A DNA stretch of 64,000 nt. It comes from Ochrovirga pacifica (GTDB lineage: Bacteria; Bacteroidota; Bacteroidia; Flavobacteriales; Flavobacteriaceae). The stretch lies in contig NZ_AFPK01000043.1 of assembly GCF_000220525.1 (NCBI RefSeq), forward strand, positions 1-64,000. The letters run 5' to 3'. Below the pieces are notes generated by a model. It did not search any database, was not told where the DNA came from, and saw only the letters and a program-made list of their open reading frames with translations. This document shows, one piece after another, positions 31,878 to 39,539 of this stretch. The number at the start of each line of letters is the position of its first letter. The stretch's first letter is position 1. Made by a program: the position numbers and the translations under genes.

Positions 31878-32336
31878 TCAATCCTCATCAAACAAATATG
31901 CGGTTTTATAATCCACCTCATAGGCTTTTAAAAAATCAACATATTCTTCTCTAAACGTTTTCTTTCGGTGATGTTCTTCTTGATTTTTAATATATCTAAT
32001 TACATTTTTCACACCAGACTGACTAACCGTAAAAGCACCAAACCCCGTTTGCCACTCAAATTTACAAGGAATAAAATTATTTTCATTTACCCACTTTGAG
32101 GAATTTGCTTTTATATCACGCACCAAATCTGACAAGTTGCAATTAGGCTTTGTGCCAATTAATAAATGTATATGATCTGCAACCCCATTAACCATCATCA
32201 TCTTTTGGTTCTTATTAGTTACCACCCCAGTAATATACTTATACAAATCATCTTTCCACAATTTAGAAATATGATTTCTTCTTCCTTTTACTGCAAAAAC
32301 AATATGAAAATAAAGTTGTGTATAGGTGTTGGCCAT
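31878..32336 (-). CDS. REP-associated tyrosine transposase (IS200-like, RAYT)
   Basis: A 152-residue Y1-type HUH enzyme. The HUH metal motif is H55-I-H57 in VADHIHLLIG and the candidate nucleophile is Y115 in IRYIKNQEEHH, followed by TFREEYVDFLKAYEVDY, the usual C-terminal signature of this family. Such single-stranded DNA transposases cut at hairpins, and RAYTs are linked to dispersed REP palindromes. It is flanked on both sides by GCTCC-N3-GGAGC palindromes. It has no tnpB partner and no IS ends were seen, so it fits a domesticated RAYT better than a complete IS200. Confidence 0.88.
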   Translation of the reverse strand: MANTYTQLYFHIVFAVKGRRNHISKLWKDDLYKYITGVVTNKNQKMMMVNGVADHIHLLIGTKPNCNLSDLVRDIKANSSKWVNENNFIPCKFEWQTGFGAFTVSQSGVKNVIRYIKNQEEHHRKKTFREEYVDFLKAYEVDYKTAYLFDED

Positions 32337-32458
32337 CTACTGATATTTATAGCTAAGCTAGAACAGCCTACAAAAAAAGTAATATATTCTTCATAGCAAA
32401 AGCTATATTAACAAAAAACAATAACATATGCAAGCAAATAATCAACGCAGTCATAAAG

Positions 32459-32601
32459 ATATTCCGCTCCTCTGGAACTTTGTGTGTGCATAAACATGTA
32501 TTGTCATGCAATGTTTCTTAGCTTTTAATGTTTTGCTTCTCTGAACCTTTGTGTTTACATAAATATTAATTTGAAAAAGTTCCAGGGGTGCATTATCATA
32601 C
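32459..32601 (+). repeat. Long repeat copy A (degenerate REPIN-like unit)
   Basis: This ~143 bp segment matches 34684-34835: both begin ATATTCCGCTCC, contain CATAAACAT, ATTGTC, GCAATGTTTC and TAGCTTTTAATGTTT, and end at a REP palindrome followed by TTATCA. Copy A has decayed palindromes: 32466-32478 (one mismatch), 32535-32547 and 32579-32591 (several). It lies just downstream of the 2H phosphoesterase gene. Confidence 0.7.
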
Positions 32602-32607
32602 CAAACT

Positions 32608-33315
32608 TTATTTATACAAAGTGTTAGGCTCAGTTTTTAACATGAATTCATGCAACTTTTGTACCTTATCAGCTCTTTGATACCAATCATTAAAAACTAA
32701 TTCTAGCGAATTAACTCTAAATGTACCAAATTCATAATTTTGATATTGCTCGATTAAATCAAGAAATTTTTCCTTATTATTTAGTTTGTTTTTCAGTCGA
32801 AATATTGTTGAATGAGCAGTCTGAATAGTGTAGCGTTTGTCTATAGAATGTTGCAAGTCCGAATTTTTAAAATTGGTTCTTAAGTTATTCCTTATTTGTT
32901 TTAACGTGTTATCTGTTAAAAAGCCTTGTACCATTATACAAGATGGTGATGCTGTCAATCCTTTAAATTGTATTGAAAAAGATGGTATATTTGATAAACA
33001 TTGATGAATCGTTTCAATATAAATATTCTTATCAATTTGCGATAACTTAAATCCATGATAACAAGAAATTATAGACATAACAGTAATGTGTATATCTGAT
33101 TTTGGATAATAATATTGATTGGGTTCTATTTTTTTTAGATTCAATAAAAAATCATTTATTTTATTTTTAATTTTTTGATGAGGCCTTATCAATAATGTTA
33201 TTCCAAACCTACTATCAGTAGGTGAGTCAATCAATTTATCAAACTCATAATTGTCAGTTTTATATTTTGTTATGGAATCTTGGTATAGATTATTGTAATG
33301 TTGCTTTAAATCCAT
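32608..33315 (-). CDS. 2H phosphoesterase superfamily protein
   Basis: A 235-residue protein with the two hallmark H-x-T/S motifs of 2H phosphoesterases: H76-I-T78 in SDIHITVMS and H168-S-T170 in TAHSTIFR, about 90 residues apart as in LigT/AKAP-like enzymes. These open 2',3'-cyclic phosphates or act on 2'-5' linkages in RNA or nucleotides. Its start codon overlaps the stop of the acetyltransferase gene by one base (TAATG), so the two are translated together. The substrate is unknown. It lies in an islet flanked by long repeats. Confidence 0.82.
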   Translation of the reverse strand: MDLKQHYNNLYQDSITKYKTDNYEFDKLIDSPTDSRFGITLLIRPHQKIKNKINDFLLNLKKIEPNQYYYPKSDIHITVMSIISCYHGFKLSQIDKNIYIETIHQCLSNIPSFSIQFKGLTASPSCIMVQGFLTDNTLKQIRNNLRTNFKNSDLQHSIDKRYTIQTAHSTIFRLKNKLNNKEKFLDLIEQYQNYEFGTFRVNSLELVFNDWYQRADKVQKLHEFMLKTEPNTLYK

Positions 33316-33911
33316 TAGTAATTATCTGTTTTACGAATTACCTTACAAGGATTACCAACTGCTACAGAGTTTGCAGGAATTGATTTTGTAACAATGCTTC
33401 CTGCTCCAATAACAGAATTTTCACCTATTGTAACTCCTGGTAATATTATTACACCACCACCAATCCATACATTATTTTCAATTTTTATGGGTTGTGAAAA
33501 TGTTCTGAAATAAGGAAATTCAGAATTAGAATCCCAGTTATCAACAAGTCTTTCATTTACATTGGTTGAATGCGTTGCTGTATAAATCTGAACATTTGAA
33601 GCGATTAAAACATTATTACCTATTTCTATTTTATTACAATCAACAAACGTACAGTTGATATTTATAATGACATTATCTCCAACTGAAATGTGTTGACCAT
33701 AATCACAATAAAAAGGGGTGTCAATATTTACATTGTTTCCAACATTCCCTAGTAGCTCAGTCAATATTTTGCGACGATTTTTTGAATCAGTGCTTACTGT
33801 AGAATTATAGTCTTTAGTTAGTTTTCTTGCGTTATGTATTATTCTTTGGATTTCTTTATCAGATGTATTGAATATTTCACCATCTAAACATTTTTGTAAT
33901 TCGGTCTTCAT
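33315..33911 (-). CDS. Sugar O-acetyltransferase, left-handed beta-helix (Maa/NodL type)
   Basis: A 198-residue hexapeptide-repeat acetyltransferase using acetyl-CoA. The N-terminal helices are followed by the NodL/maltose acetyltransferase signature FYCDYGQHISVGDNVIIN, the catalytic His in YTATHSTN near 115, and the C-terminal hexapeptide coils NNVWIGGGVIILPGVTIGEN and GAGSIVTKSIPANSVAVGNP. These enzymes acetylate maltose, galactosides or related sugars. Coupled with the 2H gene by a one-base overlap. Upstream, after 62 bp, lies a Crp-like regulator on the same strand. Confidence 0.9.
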   Translation of the reverse strand: MKTELQKCLDGEIFNTSDKEIQRIIHNARKLTKDYNSTVSTDSKNRRKILTELLGNVGNNVNIDTPFYCDYGQHISVGDNVIININCTFVDCNKIEIGNNVLIASNVQIYTATHSTNVNERLVDNWDSNSEFPYFRTFSQPIKIENNVWIGGGVIILPGVTIGENSVIGAGSIVTKSIPANSVAVGNPCKVIRKTDNY

Positions 33912-33973
33912 GATTAGTTTTTTTGTGCTAAAATAGAATGATTAAACCATATTTTTTTTCATCTATCTTAAAA

Positions 33974-34552
33974 TCAATATTCAGCACGAATTACACTTAG
34001 ATGTTGCTGAGTCATACCTAAGTACGAAGCAATATAACCAAGATTAATACGATTTATCAATTCAGGATTTTCTCTTACAAACTTTTCATAACGTTGTTTT
34101 GATGTTAATGTCAGGCGATCAATTCTTAAGTTTTGCATTTTTAATAATACCTCTTGATGAATTGTACGAGACCAGTTAGCAATATCAATATCTGTTTTAT
34201 ACAATTCATTTAAAGATTCAATAGACAAAGAAAATATTTTTGAATCTTCTAAAAGCTCTACAAAATCTAACCCTGCTGTTCTGTGATATAAAGAACTTGA
34301 TGAAAATGTAATATCCCCTTCTTTACTAAGCCAATTTGTTACCTCTTTTCCATCAACTAAAAAATAGGTTCTTGCACATCCTTGTTCAATAAAATAAACT
34401 GAATTGTCTTTTGTTTCAGCTTTAGTTAATAAATAATGTTTAGGCAAATGGGTTTCTTTTAATAAGTTTGATAATTGTTGAATTGATTTGTCAGATACAG
34501 GATAATATTTTCTAATTCCTTGAATGATATTTTTTATTTTATCTAAATGCAT
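33974..34552 (-). CDS. Crp/Fnr family transcriptional regulator
   Basis: A 192-residue regulator with an N-terminal cyclic-nucleotide-binding-like beta barrel (residues ~30-120, VYFIEQGCARTYFLVDGKEVT and WLSKEGDI) and a short C-terminal helix-turn-helix (INLGYIASYLGMTQQHLSVIR). It ends shortly after the recognition helix, as is common in the Flavobacteriaceae group. No Cys cluster for an iron-sulfur centre is present. The ATG at 34552 is preferred to a TTG two codons upstream. It is 62 bp upstream of the acetyltransferase and may control that islet. Confidence 0.85.
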   Translation of the reverse strand: MHLDKIKNIIQGIRKYYPVSDKSIQQLSNLLKETHLPKHYLLTKAETKDNSVYFIEQGCARTYFLVDGKEVTNWLSKEGDITFSSSSLYHRTAGLDFVELLEDSKIFSLSIESLNELYKTDIDIANWSRTIHQEVLLKMQNLRIDRLTLTSKQRYEKFVRENPELINRINLGYIASYLGMTQQHLSVIRAEY

Positions 34553-34558
34553 ACACAA

Positions 34559-35072
34559 AAATACTGAATGATTCCGGTTCGTTCAAATACAACTTAACAA
34601 CTAATAACAATGTATCAATCTGGTATAGTTATGCTCCAAAGAATCAACATACTTATAAAAACCTGTCTCCTCTGGAGTGTAAAATATTCCGCTCCTCTGG
34701 AGCTTTGTGTGTGTGTGTGTGTGCATAAACATATATTGTCTTGCAATGTTTCGTAGCTTTTAATGTTTCGCTCCTCTGGAGCTCTGTGTGTACAAAAACA
34801 TTGATTTGAAAAGCTCCAGAGGAGCGTTATCACACTAACACAAGCCTGTAACATAATAACAGCTCCGTAGGAGCGACATACTTTTTATATTTCGATCCTC
34901 TGGAGCTCTGTGTGTACAAAAACATTGATTTTGAAAAGCTCCAGAGGAGCGTTACCATACTAACCTTCAGAGCAGCGACATACCAAAAGCATTGATATAT
35001 GATAAAAAACAATTATATTAGCAGGTACGCTTCTAATGATCAGAAGTGTAAAAGTTTGCAAAAAATACTTGT
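34559..35072. repeat. Dense cluster of REP-like palindromes
   Basis: This gene-free stretch holds seven GCTCC-N3-GGAGC elements: 34667-34677 (core), 34691-34703, 34770-34782, 34813-34825, 34862-34874 (loop GTA), 34894-34906 (one mismatch) and 34938-34950. Two head-to-head pairs (34770/34813 and 34894/34938) are each joined by the same ~30 bp linker containing CTGTGTGTACAAAAACATTG, the layout of REPINs. A (TG)n run occupies about 34705-34723. A dyad CTTCT/AGAAG (35030-35046) precedes the next gene. Confidence 0.85.
34684..34835 (+). repeat. Long repeat copy B (intact REPIN-like unit)
   Basis: About 152 bp closely similar to 32459-32601, in the same orientation, but with perfect palindromes at 34691, 34770 and 34813 and a longer TG run. 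Together the two copies flank the 2H phosphoesterase, acetyltransferase and Crp-like genes. Confidence 0.7.
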
Positions 35073-35330
35073 ATGAAAAAATCAAAAAAGAAAAAGTCTC
35101 GATTCCTAAAGCAACTTACAGAACATGAAAGCTTTGTAATTAACGACGAAATATGGCTTACTACCGAAGAAGCCATGGCTTATTTAAAAGTAAGCAGAAG
35201 CACAATTTATAGATTGCGTAAAAAACACAACATTCCTAATTTTAAATTAGGAAGCATTCCATTATTCCCTAAAAAGATACTAACCAAATACCTTATCAAC
35301 CAATCTATTAGCAATCTAAAAAAAGACTAG
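35073..35330 (+). CDS. Small helix-turn-helix protein (excisionase/HTH_17 type)
   Basis: An 85-residue basic protein. A lysine-rich N-terminus (KKSKKKKSRF) is followed by an excisionase-like winged helix: WLTTEEAMAYLKVSRSTIYRLRKKHNIPNFKLGSIPLFPKKIL, given here by its pieces TTEEAMAYLKVSRSTIYRLR and FKLGSIPLF. This MerR/excisionase-like fold binds DNA and often directs recombination or cassette expression. It is convergent with the DUF6266 gene 85 bp away. Whether it binds the 10-bp array beyond that gene is untested. Confidence 0.82.
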   Translation: MKKSKKKKSRFLKQLTEHESFVINDEIWLTTEEAMAYLKVSRSTIYRLRKKHNIPNFKLGSIPLFPKKILTKYLINQSISNLKKD

Positions 35331-35343
35331 GAGGGAAGTGTAA

Positions 35344-35393
35344 ATAAAAAAAGCGTATCCGCTTTACCTTAATCGGCAACACCAATACGCTTT
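35344..35393 (-). terminator. Terminator of the DUF6266 gene
   Basis: Minus-strand stem AAAGCGTAT/ATACGCTTT (35385-35393 with 35350-35358, 26-nt loop that can pair further) followed by TTTTTTT. It ends the DUF6266 transcript; the plus-strand HTH gene reaches it from the other side. Confidence 0.75.
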
Positions 35394-35414
35394 AGCTAAA
35401 AATAGAAGGGTTTC

Positions 35415-36056
35415 TTACAACACAGCAACAGTGCCCATATAGGTGCTAATGGCTGCATAGTTTGTTTCAGGCTTATGAAAAGAAGCCCATACCTGTACCT
35501 GAAACGTTGCCATATAGTTAGGTAAGTTTACCGTAACCGTAGTTGCATCTCTAGTAGCCACAGCAGTATTGCTGTAATACGCTTCAATTTCAGGGGCGTA
35601 TACTACCACCATTAAAACATCTGTAGCTGTAGCCTTACCTTGTCCGCTGTTATCTTGCCAGCCTAAGGTTAGCGTTTGTGCTGCTCCCGCAGTTACCGTA
35701 CCTCCATCAATACCTCTTAAATCTCCTTTGCTTATCAATACTTTTTCATAGTCCATTACCATTCCTTGCGGACTGCTAACCACAGCATTTTTTAGATGAT
35801 AAGAAGTTGCCATATTAGCACGAGACCTATCACCTTGTGGACTTCCAAAATAAGCGTTTAACACCTCTGTAATAGGATTTAAAAAACCAATTACAGTTTT
35901 AAATTTTTCGCGTTGTTCCTCTTGTTTTGTGGTAGGAACATAACTACCACGCTGTGGTAAACTTCGCATTACGTTTTTACCTCGCCAACGCGAACCTACT
36001 ACGTTTCCTACTTTTCCAGAAAAACCTCCTAAAATACCTTTTTCAAATGTTGCCAT
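35415..36056 (-). CDS. DUF6266 family protein
   Basis: A 213-residue protein of the DUF6266 type, recognisable from the N-terminus MATFEKGILGGFSGKVGNV and the SRWRGKNVMRSLPQRGSYV region (given in parts). The C-terminal half (residues ~125-213) is beta-rich with a fibronectin/Ig-like look (TLTLGWQDNSGQGKATATDV, TVTVNLPNYMATFQVQVWASF). There is no signal peptide. Function is unknown; homologues in Bacteroidota are often strongly expressed and sometimes multicopy (recollection). Nine extra upstream codons are open but lack an ATG context. The exact 10-bp repeat array begins 64 bp upstream of its start codon. Confidence 0.8.
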   Translation of the reverse strand: MATFEKGILGGFSGKVGNVVGSRWRGKNVMRSLPQRGSYVPTTKQEEQREKFKTVIGFLNPITEVLNAYFGSPQGDRSRANMATSYHLKNAVVSSPQGMVMDYEKVLISKGDLRGIDGGTVTAGAAQTLTLGWQDNSGQGKATATDVLMVVVYAPEIEAYYSNTAVATRDATTVTVNLPNYMATFQVQVWASFHKPETNYAAISTYMGTVAVL

Positions 36057-36120
36057 AGTTTTTTTATTTAAAATTAATAACACTGCAAACTACCCTATAA
36101 CACCCTAAAAAACAAACACT

Positions 36121-36260
36121 TGAACTTTACTGACACGAATTGACGTAAAGAAAAACAAACAGACATCTATAGACACTTGGTGACACATGCTGACACACAG
36201 TGACACACTGTGACACACGCTGACACATTCTGAAACAACCTGACCGTGATTGACACAAAA
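36121..36260. repeat. Array of fourteen 10-bp units, consensus TGACACANNN
   Basis: Units start at every tenth base from 36121 to 36251 without a single slip. Eleven slots begin TGA, two begin AGA (36161, 36171), and one (36151) is degenerate. The best-conserved core is 36181-36230 (five consecutive TGACACA). The three last bases of each unit vary. A 17-bp palindrome CACAGTG-ACA-CACTGTG (36196-36212) lies in the core. In the plus direction TGA recurs in every frame, so it is non-coding there. It lies just upstream of the probable DUF6266 promoter. Confidence 0.9.
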
Positions 36261-36402
36261 GTTCAATTTTTCAGGGGTTTTGTTCGAGTCTCCTTCGGGT
36301 TTTCTTCGGAAGAGACTTTGGTGTATTTTTTAAAAATGGACGTTTTTGGGAACAATACCGAAGCAAACTAAAACAAAACCCTATGCTACTACAGCAATGC
36401 AT
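36261..36402. other. Intergenic remainder with an imperfect hairpin
   Basis: After the array, AGTCTCCTTC (36287-36296) can pair with GGAAGAGACT (36308-36317) with one bulge. No gene, promoter or T run was identified. The plus-strand open frame at 36346 is the shadow of the convergent alcohol dehydrogenase gene. Confidence 0.4.
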
Positions 36403-36437
36403 AAAAAAAGTCTGGAAAATATACTTTCCAGACTTTT
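36403..36437 (-). terminator. Terminator of the alcohol dehydrogenase gene
   Basis: Perfect 13-bp stem on the minus strand (36425-36437 with 36406-36418), 6-nt loop, then TTTTTTT. Confidence 0.9.
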
Positions 36438-36461
36438 AAAATCATATCAATTTTACCACAA

Positions 36462-37622
36462 TCAATATGCCATTTCAACAATTTTTTCTACATCGTTAGG
36501 AGTAAGGCTTTGGTGTTCTCCTAAACCTTTCCATCCTCGTTCTGTAAAACGTTGGGCTATTTTTTGTGCCGTTCCTTGGTAGTCTTGAGTATAGTCAGAC
36601 AATTTGGTGTCTATTTCTAAACTCTTAAAAAATGCTTCTGTTTTTTCAATTCCCGCTTGGGCTTTTTCTTCTAAAGTTCCTTCGGTTACTTGCCAAACTC
36701 TTTCTGCATATTGTGCTAACTTCTCTTTTTTAGATTCAAAGTTATAGGTATAATGGCTAGGAGCAATTACAGCCAAGGTTCTTGCGTGGTCTATACCAAA
36801 CAAAGCGGTAAGCTCGTGTCCAATAGCGTGTACTGCCCAGTCTGTAGGAACTCCTTTCTGAATCAATCCGTTTAAAGCCATTGTACAGCTCCACATAAAA
36901 TTGGCTGCTGCTTTGTAGTCTGTAGGATCTTTTAAAATTTTGGGTGCTACTTCTATCAATGTTTGTAAAATGCTTTCGGCTATTCTATCTTGTAGCAAAG
37001 CCCCAATAGGGTAGGTCATGTACTGTTCTAGCACATGGTTAAAAGCATCTGTAATTCCGTTGGCCAATTGTCTTTGTGGTATAGAATGAATTACCGTAGG
37101 GTCTAAAACCGAAAACTTAGGAAACAATCCTGGTCCGCCCATGGCTAATTTTTCTTGTGTTTCTTCTCTGGTAATTACAGCCCCTGAATTCATTTCTGAT
37201 CCTGTAGCAGGTAAGGTAAGTACAGTACCAAATGGCATCCCTTTAGTGGTTCTAATATTTTGGGTTAATATATCCCAAGGAGTATCGCCCTCATACAACG
37301 CTGCCGAAGATAAAAATTTGGTTCCATCAATTACAGACCCTCCACCAACGGCTAACAAATATGTAATATTTTGCTCTTTAATTACTTGCAATGCTTCCAT
37401 TAAAATTGCATACTCAGGGTTGGCAGGTATTCCTCCAAATTCTACAAAATCATATGCCTTTAATGCAGAAGTAACTTGTTGATAGATTCCATTTTTTTTG
37501 ATGCTTCCACCACCGTATAAAACTAAGATTTTAGCATCTTTAGGGATTTCGTTTTTAATGTTTTCTATTTGATCTTTACCAAATAATATTTTGGTTGGAT
37601 TTTGATATTCAAAATTGTTCAT
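36462..37622 (-). CDS. Iron-containing alcohol dehydrogenase (YqhD/BdhA-like)
   Basis: A 386-residue NAD(P)H-dependent alcohol/aldehyde oxidoreductase. The start MNNFEYQNPTKILFGKDQI and the nucleotide site YLLAVGGGSVIDGTKFLS are typical of the YqhD branch. Metal ligands are visible in NGITDAFNHVLEQY and AIGHELTALFGIDHARTLA. YqhD-type enzymes reduce short aldehydes such as those from lipid peroxidation. It is 65 bp downstream of a nitroreductase gene on the same strand, and the pair could be a detoxification operon (inference). Confidence 0.92.
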   Translation of the reverse strand: MNNFEYQNPTKILFGKDQIENIKNEIPKDAKILVLYGGGSIKKNGIYQQVTSALKAYDFVEFGGIPANPEYAILMEALQVIKEQNITYLLAVGGGSVIDGTKFLSSAALYEGDTPWDILTQNIRTTKGMPFGTVLTLPATGSEMNSGAVITREETQEKLAMGGPGLFPKFSVLDPTVIHSIPQRQLANGITDAFNHVLEQYMTYPIGALLQDRIAESILQTLIEVAPKILKDPTDYKAAANFMWSCTMALNGLIQKGVPTDWAVHAIGHELTALFGIDHARTLAVIAPSHYTYNFESKKEKLAQYAERVWQVTEGTLEEKAQAGIEKTEAFFKSLEIDTKLSDYTQDYQGTAQKIAQRFTERGWKGLGEHQSLTPNDVEKIVEMAY

Positions 37623-37687
37623 TTGCTTGTTTATTTTGGTTGATGGTTTCTTTTTTTTCTATAGCTACTTTTTTTACCTGTAAAAGA

Positions 37688-38320
37688 TTAGTCTATTACG
37701 GTTACCAAATCTTTTGTGCTTTTTCTTACTTTTTCTAAAGAAGACAACCAATCATTAGCTTCGTCTCTATATCCTAATGGCAATAAAATAGCACTACGCA
37801 ACCCTTTTTCTTTTAACTCTAAAATTTTGTCTACAGCATCAGGATCAAAACCTTCCATAGGGGTTGCATCTACTTTTTCAAAAGCAGCAGCTGCAATAGC
37901 CAAACCAAAAGCGATATAAGCTTGCTTGGCCGCATGGTTGTAGTTTACTTCTGCATCTTTTTGTGGATAAGAATTTAACAACATTTGACGATAGTTTTCC
38001 CAACCTTCGTTTTTAAAACCACGAATTTCATTGGTTAAATCGAACATTTTGTTAATTCTCTCTTCAGTATAAGTATCCCAAGCAGCAAAAACCAAAAGAT
38101 GAGAACAATCGGTAATTACGGATTGATTCCAACCCACTGCTTTTATTTTTTCTTTAATTTCTTTATTCTTTACAACTATAATTTCAAAGGGTTGCAAACC
38201 ACTAGAAGTTGGTGCCAATCTTGCTGCTTCAATAATCTTGTTTACTTTTTCTTCTGGCACACTTTTACCATTCATGGCTTTGGTTGCGTATCTCCAATTT
38301 AATGTATCTAATAATTCCAT
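37688..38320 (-). CDS. NAD(P)H-dependent oxidoreductase, nitroreductase family
   Basis: A 210-residue FMN enzyme of the NfsB group: LNWRYATKAMNGKSVPEEKV, the FMN-contact segment AARLAPTSSGLQPFEIIVV, WNQSVITDCSHLLVFAAWD and a late GLRSAILLPLGYRDEANDWL. It reduces quinones or nitro-compounds. It is divergent from an LLM oxidoreductase across a 202-bp region with nested repeats, and upstream of the YqhD-like gene. Confidence 0.92.
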   Translation of the reverse strand: MELLDTLNWRYATKAMNGKSVPEEKVNKIIEAARLAPTSSGLQPFEIIVVKNKEIKEKIKAVGWNQSVITDCSHLLVFAAWDTYTEERINKMFDLTNEIRGFKNEGWENYRQMLLNSYPQKDAEVNYNHAAKQAYIAFGLAIAAAAFEKVDATPMEGFDPDAVDKILELKEKGLRSAILLPLGYRDEANDWLSSLEKVRKSTKDLVTVID

Positions 38321-38342
38321 TTGGTTTTTTATTTAAACTTGT

Positions 38343-38427
38343 TACTGTAGTCGTAACAACAGTCGTACCACTTACAGTATATTTTACATAAGTATGTTTA
38401 GGTTTTGCTGGGCTTGCATACATACTT
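38343..38427. promoter_or_regulatory. Nested repeats in the nitroreductase/LLM divergent region
   Basis: TACTGTA (38343-38349) and TACAGTA (38373-38379) are inverted arms enclosing two direct AGTCGTA copies 12 bp apart. A second inverted pair, AAGTATGT (38390-38397) and ACATACTT (38420-38427), follows. Two divergent oxidoreductase genes flank it, so these are plausible binding sites for a redox or xenobiotic regulator; the regulator is not in the window. Confidence 0.45.
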
Positions 38428-38522
38428 TAAAAAACACAATTTATTCTTTTTTGTTTTGGCTTTTGCCTTATTTTTTGATAGGTTTTGAAGTCTAGATAGA
38501 CTAAAAATTAAATAATTTTTTT

Positions 38523-39539
38523 ATGAAATTAAAACAAACCTCTTATTCCATATTAGATTTAGCGATTATCTCGCAAGGAAAAGATTTACAACATACCTTT
38601 CAGGATACATTAACGTTAGCCCAACATGCAGAAAAATACGGATACACCCGATACTGGTTGGCAGAACATCATAACTCTGACAATATAGGAAGTAGTGCTA
38701 CCTCTGTATTAATAGGTTATGTAGCCCAAGGAACAGAACGTATTCGTGTAGGATCTGGAGGAATTATGCTGCCCAACCATTCTCCTTTGGTTATAGCAGA
38801 ACAATTTGGAACTTTAGGGTCTTTGTATCCCAATAGAATAGACTTAGGGTTGGGGAGAGCTCCTGGTACCGACAGAGAAACTGCAGAAGCCATTAGATCA
38901 GACTTTATGCAAGCAGCCCATTCATTCCCCCAAGAGCTTAAAAAAATAGAAAACTACTTTTCTCCAGAAAACATCCATGCCAAGGTAAGGGCTACGGTAG
39001 CAGAAGGAGTACATGTACCTGTATACATTTTAGGATCTAGTACCGAAAGTGCTCATTTGGCGGCTAAAAAGGGATTGCCTTATGCGTTTGCCAGTCATTT
39101 TGCAACCACGCACTTGCACGAAGCTATTAAAATTTATCGTGATGAGTTTCAACCTTCCAAAGTGCTAAAACAGCCTTATGTAATGGCCGGAGTAAATGTG
39201 ATTGTTGCCAATACTAACGAAGAAGCACAACGCATGTATACCTCTTTAATAGGGTTGATTGTAGGGCTTTTTACAGGAAAAAGAAAAAAAGTACAAGCAC
39301 CAGAAGCGTTTACAGAAGAACATCAGCAAATACTTGCACACCCACAAGTACAACAAATGCTAAAATATACGTTTGTAGGAAACAAAGCATCGGTAAAAGA
39401 ACAAGTGGCCGGCTTTTTAGAAAGAACACAGGTAGATGAGTTGATTGCGGTAACGAATATTTATGACAGTAACCATCGTATAGATTCTTATCGTATGTTT
39501 GCAGAAATCATGCAAGAGTTGAATACTGAAAACGCCTGA
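38523..39539 (+). CDS. LLM class flavin-dependent oxidoreductase
   Basis: A 338-residue luciferase-like monooxygenase of the MsnO8/YhbW branch. Diagnostic stretches: [71 protein letters not shown] and [24 protein letters not shown]-barrel enzyme that uses reduced flavin; the substrate is unknown. Divergent from the nitroreductase, which could supply reduced flavin (inference). The sugar kinase follows after 39 bp. Confidence 0.92.

Follow-up and report, generated by a model that had tools for sequence, protein, structure and literature searches.

A 14-unit array of 10-bp repeats in Ochrovirga pacifica (Flavobacteriaceae) is probably the operator of a DUF6266 gene promoter, on which the HTH_17 product of the adjacent convergent gene would assemble as a head-to-tail filament; the case rests on comparison of sequences and on structural models. 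Within the window, the whole 64,000-nucleotide stretch of DNA that was analyzed, the array is real and far above chance, and it forms one segment of a conserved module of about 1.3 kb rather than plain satellite DNA. The module opens with a core of 11-bp repeats, followed by the array, a promoter of Bacteroidetes type, DUF6266 and, convergent with DUF6266, the HTH_17 gene (Table 1). Its limits, about 35073-36380, are set by the span of homology between the window and the nearest relatives.

Table 1. Components of the module and their coordinates in the window.
Feature	Position	Strand	Description
Core	36274-36381	-	Left arm, CCATTTTTAAAAAATACA block, right arm; alignment A4, match to model R1 at 9.5e-24
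10-bp-period array	36121-36260	-	14 units, TGACACANNN on the + strand, NNNTGTGTCA on the gene strand; recurs in relatives
-33 box of the DUF6266 promoter	36113-36116	-	TTTG; from promoter search
-7 box	36086-36092	-	TAGTTTG; 20 bp from the -33 box
DUF6266 gene	35415-36053	-	PF19781, 1.6e-38; ATG at 36053
HTH_17/excisionase-family protein, 85 aa	35073-35330	+	PF12728, 1.8e-11; TIGR01764, 2.6e-9; convergent with DUF6266; proposed array binder

An array in strict 10-bp register

All 14 units hold the 36121 + 10n register with no insertion or deletion, exactly as the initial annotation had it. The bases T, G, A, C, A, C and A are found in 11, 13, 14, 11, 11, 10 and 9 of the 14 units, respectively, and the remaining three positions are free; units 1 and 3-6 are degenerate and the best units run from 36181 onward. 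Identity at lag 10 is 0.60, as compared to 0.277 ± 0.043 in dinucleotide shuffles, none of which (0/5000) reach 0.60, and self-identity stays at 0.59 and 0.57 at lags 20 and 30. TGAC occurs nine times in a single phase (the shuffles reach five at most), and the array is the top 140-bp lag-10 stretch of the window, with no other stretch near it. Its upstream location stands, with the distance to the DUF6266 ATG corrected from 65-204 bp to 68-207 bp. The palindrome CACAGTG-ACA-CACTGTG reported from the core of the array is present and incidental: it is a product of variable bases in two adjoining units, and its recurrence was not seen in relatives.

The array had been described correctly, while the larger element around it, namely the core, the HTH_17 gene and two further arrays in the genome, was missed. 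The core adjoins the array on the side away from the DUF6266 gene and is partly self-complementary; its right arm carries about three 11-bp direct repeats of the YCCGAACAAAA type and terminates in CCCC. A structured RNA element was ruled out, with no Rfam match and no consensus pair in an RNAalifold analysis of 35 cores, as was plain satellite DNA, the array being accompanied by a conserved core and promoter. For a link to defence, the only match was a partial one to mad1, in PADLOC (2.6e-5) and, under the cut-off, in NCBIfam.

The DUF6266 gene and its two subfamilies

The gene below the array was rightly named as DUF6266: its PF19781 match scores 132.7 bits against a gathering cut-off of 23.4 and covers residues 11-207. 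It is the single DUF6266 gene of the O. pacifica genome, and DUF6266 is not named in any paper of the literature searched. The AF2 model (pLDDT 86) shows a disordered glycine-rich N-terminus, a helical region and a C-terminal FN3-like β sandwich (residues 110-212; FN3 matches with Z up to 11.4). Since the model has helices and an FN3-like sandwich and no recognized DNA-binding fold, regulated product is a likelier role for DUF6266 than array binder. A phage origin of the window gene was considered and dropped, with no PHROGs match, one weak phage match (E 0.01, 28.6%) and no plasmid match.

Scanning of 84,980 species genomes yielded 52 named loci, mainly in Polaribacter, Wenyingzhuangia, Winogradskyella, Formosa, Mariniflexile and other Flavobacteriaceae and also in Empedobacter and gut Bacteroidales; chance matches, numerous above about 1e-4 in a first family-wide DNA search, were disregarded. 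DUF6266 splits into two subfamilies, and the window gene belongs to the one that has the core, array and promoter upstream. No such array was seen in the Flavobacterium-type subfamily (28 high-scoring loci inspected); most of these 28 instead have two or three AAGTCCGTACC-type repeats of 11 bp ahead of the ATG. Upstream of subfamily-A genes (L040-L067), 11-bp direct repeats AAGTCCGTACC AAGTCCGAA located 30-70 bp before the start codon form a conserved element different from the array, and similar repeats are found in gut Bacteroidales (L154, L155, L162).

Viral sequences gave nothing in a first scan and one 4.3-kb contig (L202) in an alignment scan. There, a DUF6266 relative is followed by holin-like and lysozyme-like proteins and a tyrosine integrase (named by eye), a gene order that hints that the DUF6266 family arose from a phage or satellite. 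In Polaribacter filamentus (L121), a transposase gene, of IS1595 type by eye, splits the array from DUF6266.

A conserved period and a promoter phase lock

The 10-bp period, shared by many marine flavobacteria, precedes nearly all Flavobacteriaceae DUF6266 genes of the window gene's subfamily, with lag-10 z mostly 3-11, and is absent or weak at most Bacteroidales loci. The unit itself changes with lineage: it reads GTGTCA, GTCATAAG in Mangrovimonas, GTGCCA in Bizionia, GGGACA in Subsaxibacter, GACA in Gelidibacter, TGCAA in Leeuwenhoekiella and GGACA in Empedobacter, with GTGTCA, GTGCCA, TGCAA and GGACA read on the gene strand and CA/TG kept in every motif class. Thus, the period is conserved and the TGACACA motif is lineage-specific; the suggestion that TGACACA units would recur at 10-bp spacing before DUF6266 genes of other Flavobacteriaceae holds for the period, fails for the motif and applies to one DUF6266 subfamily only.

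The TAGTTTG element suspected of being a promoter is present, as the -7 box, with its -33 partner in place. A TTG-N18..21-TAnnTT[TCG] promoter lies before the ATG in 33 of 43 loci, against 3.5 expected. The last array unit ends 5 bp before the TTG in 21 loci and 15 bp before it in six, together 27 of the 33 promoter-bearing loci; the window locus falls into the 15-bp class. An operator read in register with RNA polymerase would produce such a lock. Control of the DUF6266 promoter by HTH_17 is considered likely, with activation only slightly favored over repression.

The neighboring HTH_17 protein

Of 43 loci, 41 have an HTH_17 gene near DUF6266, and in 36 it is convergent and at most 2.2 kb downstream; exceptions are Leeuwenhoekiella, where it lies upstream, Gaetbulibacter, where it is 2.4 kb away, and one Empedobacter array with none nearby. 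The window protein scores 44.5 bits for PF12728 (cut-off 27) and 37.3 for TIGR01764 (cut-off 28.8); its Subsaxibacter and Pustulibacterium relatives score under the TIGR01764 cut-off. Its AF2 model (pLDDT 80) is a small wHTH without a coiled-coil or effector domain, matching the GIsul2 excisionase (Z 8.5), Pukovnik Xis (8.4), BldC (8.3 over 53 residues, rmsd 2.0), RdfS (7.2) and the λ Xis filament (6.4). By sequence, the top solved chain is BldC, with a weak E of 0.022. The nearest solved structures, in sequence as in fold (Z 8.0-8.5), come from filament formers. The covarying HTH_17 positions 41-43 correspond to BldC residues 24-26 in the alignment, and Arg47, conserved at 90% or more, to BldC Arg30. 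In BldC, Lys26 and Arg30 make major-groove base contacts, with Arg30 reading a YpG step (PMC5859096). By analogy, Arg47 would contact the YpG step of the unit, which fits the presence of CA/TG in all motif classes.

Covariation of unit sequence and recognition helix

When motifs, derived as de novo position matrices, were compared under all cyclic shifts, the unit sequence was found to covary most strongly with the HTH_17 recognition helix. SRST-type helices pair with GTGTCA, DERT, SDRT and CPRT with GACA, and SLST and TPSC with GCAA. Motif distance correlates with recognition-helix distance at r = 0.64. Once DUF6266 and the remainder of the HTH protein are controlled for, the partial r of the helix is 0.47 (p = 0.0005), the loci being related rather than independent and the Mantel tests correcting only partly for shared ancestry; that remainder, with the helix controlled for, has an r of -0.01. 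Among the 28 best arrays, the helix partial r falls to 0.33 (p = 0.007). An 8-residue scan of HTH_17 has its maximum where the recognition helix starts, at residues 38-48 (LKVSRSTIYRL), with a partial r of 0.66 given DUF6266 and an average of 0.20 across the scanned windows. Joint change is seen in a sister pair, Bizionia with SRRSINR and GTGCCA versus Formosa maritima with SRSTLNR and GTGTCA. In the DUF6266 tree, two changes each are required for the GACA and GCAA classes, assigned by eye, with a single origin just conceivable.

Binding of the array by HTH_17 is regarded as very likely. A different binder, either DUF6266 itself or an unlinked regulator with the HTH_17 synteny incidental, is improbable: a weak residual correlation links the motif to DUF6266 (partial r 0.25, p 0.01) and some genomes have arrays without a close HTH_17 gene, yet the signal is maximal at the HTH recognition helix, the best of 205 8-residue windows in DUF6266 reaching 0.35, and the DUF6266 model offers no fold of the expected kind.

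In the preferred reading, HTH_17 as the array binder, one protomer would occupy each 10-bp unit and contact the next one head-to-tail on a single face of the DNA, fixing the spacing at one turn and leaving three bases per unit free. The promoter-proximal unit, set against the -33 box at a fixed phase, would allow the filament to contact RNA polymerase, and the upstream core of 11-bp repeats may be a second DNA site, for another factor. A filament on the array is probable and is the most economical account of the fold, the exact 10-bp spacing and the covariation taken together; the fold alone shows no function. The initial proposal of selection for a protein aligned on one face of DNA is supported, so far as sequences can tell, because the period recurs, the promoter is phase-locked and the unit tracks the neighbor's recognition helix.

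Copies of the core and array without DUF6266

Three arrays exist in the O. pacifica genome, at 36121-36260, C15:102984-103123 and C46:3948-4017; they have the last units of the array and the core in common, and only three cores were found. Two of the three lack DUF6266, and therefore the element can stand without it. Cores at E < 1e-4 are present in 12 of 100 genomes, among them all ten with a subfamily-B gene. Some two thirds of the 27 copies outside annotated DUF6266 loci retain the 10-bp array, and one (L182) precedes a DUF6266-like start. The motif of a solo array is often that of the resident module, e.g., GGGACA in G120 and GTCATAAG in G063. Against the preferred reading, three solo copies in G024 have strong arrays (z 7.9-10.6) without a close HTH_17 gene, and solo arrays are also present in G133, G250 and G176, which lack the module. 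Copies lacking DUF6266 thus exist as the same structured element, not as the satellite DNA at unrelated loci that the initial annotation had set against its own reading.

Only about half of the solo copies lie within 500 bp of a gene in the same direction, and the unit-N5-TTG lock persists in 7 of 18 (1.9 expected). The copies therefore resemble control regions that have decayed to different degrees, and a regulon is not claimed. They may have outlived DUF6266 or been copied without it. Wenyingzhuangia sp. 2_MG-2023 (L153), in which DUF6266 has an internal deletion, no HTH_17 gene is nearby and the array is retained, is an apparent intermediate.

The core and array could instead be a cis site of a mobile element (att site or transposition end), with HTH_17 as an Xis-like directionality factor and the solo copies as remnants, an option that we consider unlikely. 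In its favor, HTH_17 belongs to an excisionase family (TIGR01764) and finds its best fold matches among excisionases; within a genome, the dispersed solo copies resemble one another (79-86% in G000); and the L202 relative of DUF6266 lies near an integrase-like gene. However, no integrase or recombinase was noticed beside the module among the ORFs of 33000-39500 and in the listed relatives, the neighbors being inspected rather than systematically profiled; module neighbors vary by species, yet an alcohol dehydrogenase neighbor is retained across Wenyingzhuangia; the array is locked to a promoter; and pairs from G024, G133, G296 and G000 revealed no clear boundary or target duplication. A neutral tandem repeat homogenized by replication slippage would explain tandem units, variable copy number and within-genome likeness, but is very improbable given the exact 10-bp spacing in many genera whose motifs have turned over, the promoter phase lock and the helix covariation; slippage would not preserve the spacing when three bases of each unit vary.

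About 0.8 kb from a solo array on contig C15, L017 6002-8556 encodes a DUF6266-like protein (no Pfam, PHROGs or NCBIfam match), DUF5675, a small hydrophobic protein and DUF6943, and looks like a phage-derived cassette. L173 and L106, from two genera, have solo cores beside the same gene (protein start MDI[KQ]AYI[DE]SGILELYVAGALSEKENKEVY); one of the two retains its array, which the other has lost.

Relation to known systems

Direct-repeat arrays on which a small DNA-binding protein assembles and which also act as its operator are familiar from plasmid partition centromeres and RHH operators (ParR, omega), where RHH or ParB-type proteins act with an NTPase; by contrast, no RHH/ParB-type or NTPase gene was noticed at the module. 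The TAACTGA heptamers of Beggiatoaceae, Cyanobacteria and some Bacteroidetes, for which a regulatory role was proposed, likewise occur as sets of short direct repeats ahead of genes, in lineages that are scattered, but have 7-bp units, often lie at start codons, have been proposed to be bound at the RNA level and have no linked DNA-binding protein (PMC4679880). Excisionases and RDFs (the λ Xis filament, RdfS, Pukovnik Xis) share the wHTH class and form filaments on DNA; λ Xis and RdfS assemble head-to-tail, RdfS with about 10 bp per protomer and no recognizable sequence motif (PMC11963761). An extra N-terminal helix is common to RdfS and the HTH_17 model. Unlike the module, in which no recombinase was noticed, these proteins act on att sites with one.

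BldC of Streptomyces, the nearest PDB match to HTH_17 by sequence and among the best by fold, is the closest parallel: a small wHTH protein that forms a head-to-tail oligomer on direct repeats of variable number near promoters, including those of whiI and smeA-sffA, with 9 bp per protomer in crystals (PMC5859096). BldC units (AATTNNNNC) are 9 bp long, few, degenerate and partly read by shape (PMC5859096), whereas the units here are 10 bp, not AATT-based, up to about 14-18 in number, sequence-specific and phase-locked to the promoter, and the regulator gene adjoins its proposed target. By analogy, the system would work like BldC but as a variant of filament-forming wHTH regulation; it is not filed as BldC itself because unit length and sequence differ.

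For wHTH proteins that form filaments, among them BldC and Xis, the known sites are few and degenerate, and the code behind their specificity is poorly defined. The module supplies dozens of natural pairs of protein and operator, in which many nearly identical sites stand in register and switches of specificity can be seen, making a recognition code and the geometry of a filament with 10 bp per protomer directly testable; if the model is true, such a code could be extracted for this class, and a widespread DUF6266 subfamily gains a candidate regulator and promoter. More tentatively, there may be a BldC/Xis-like family that polymerizes on long, one-turn-spaced, sequence-specific, promoter-locked operators, whose specificity drifts between genera via a few recognition-helix residues and whose solo copies act as a dispersed regulon or as decoys.

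Elsewhere in the window, a gene at 31878-32336 (- strand), named by eye, reads like a Y1 (REP-associated) transposase and is close to dispersed palindromes of the GCTCCAGAGGAGC type at 32456-32604 and 34681-34964 (84 bp at 93% and 159 bp at 81% identity); the two are possibly a REP/RAYT pair.
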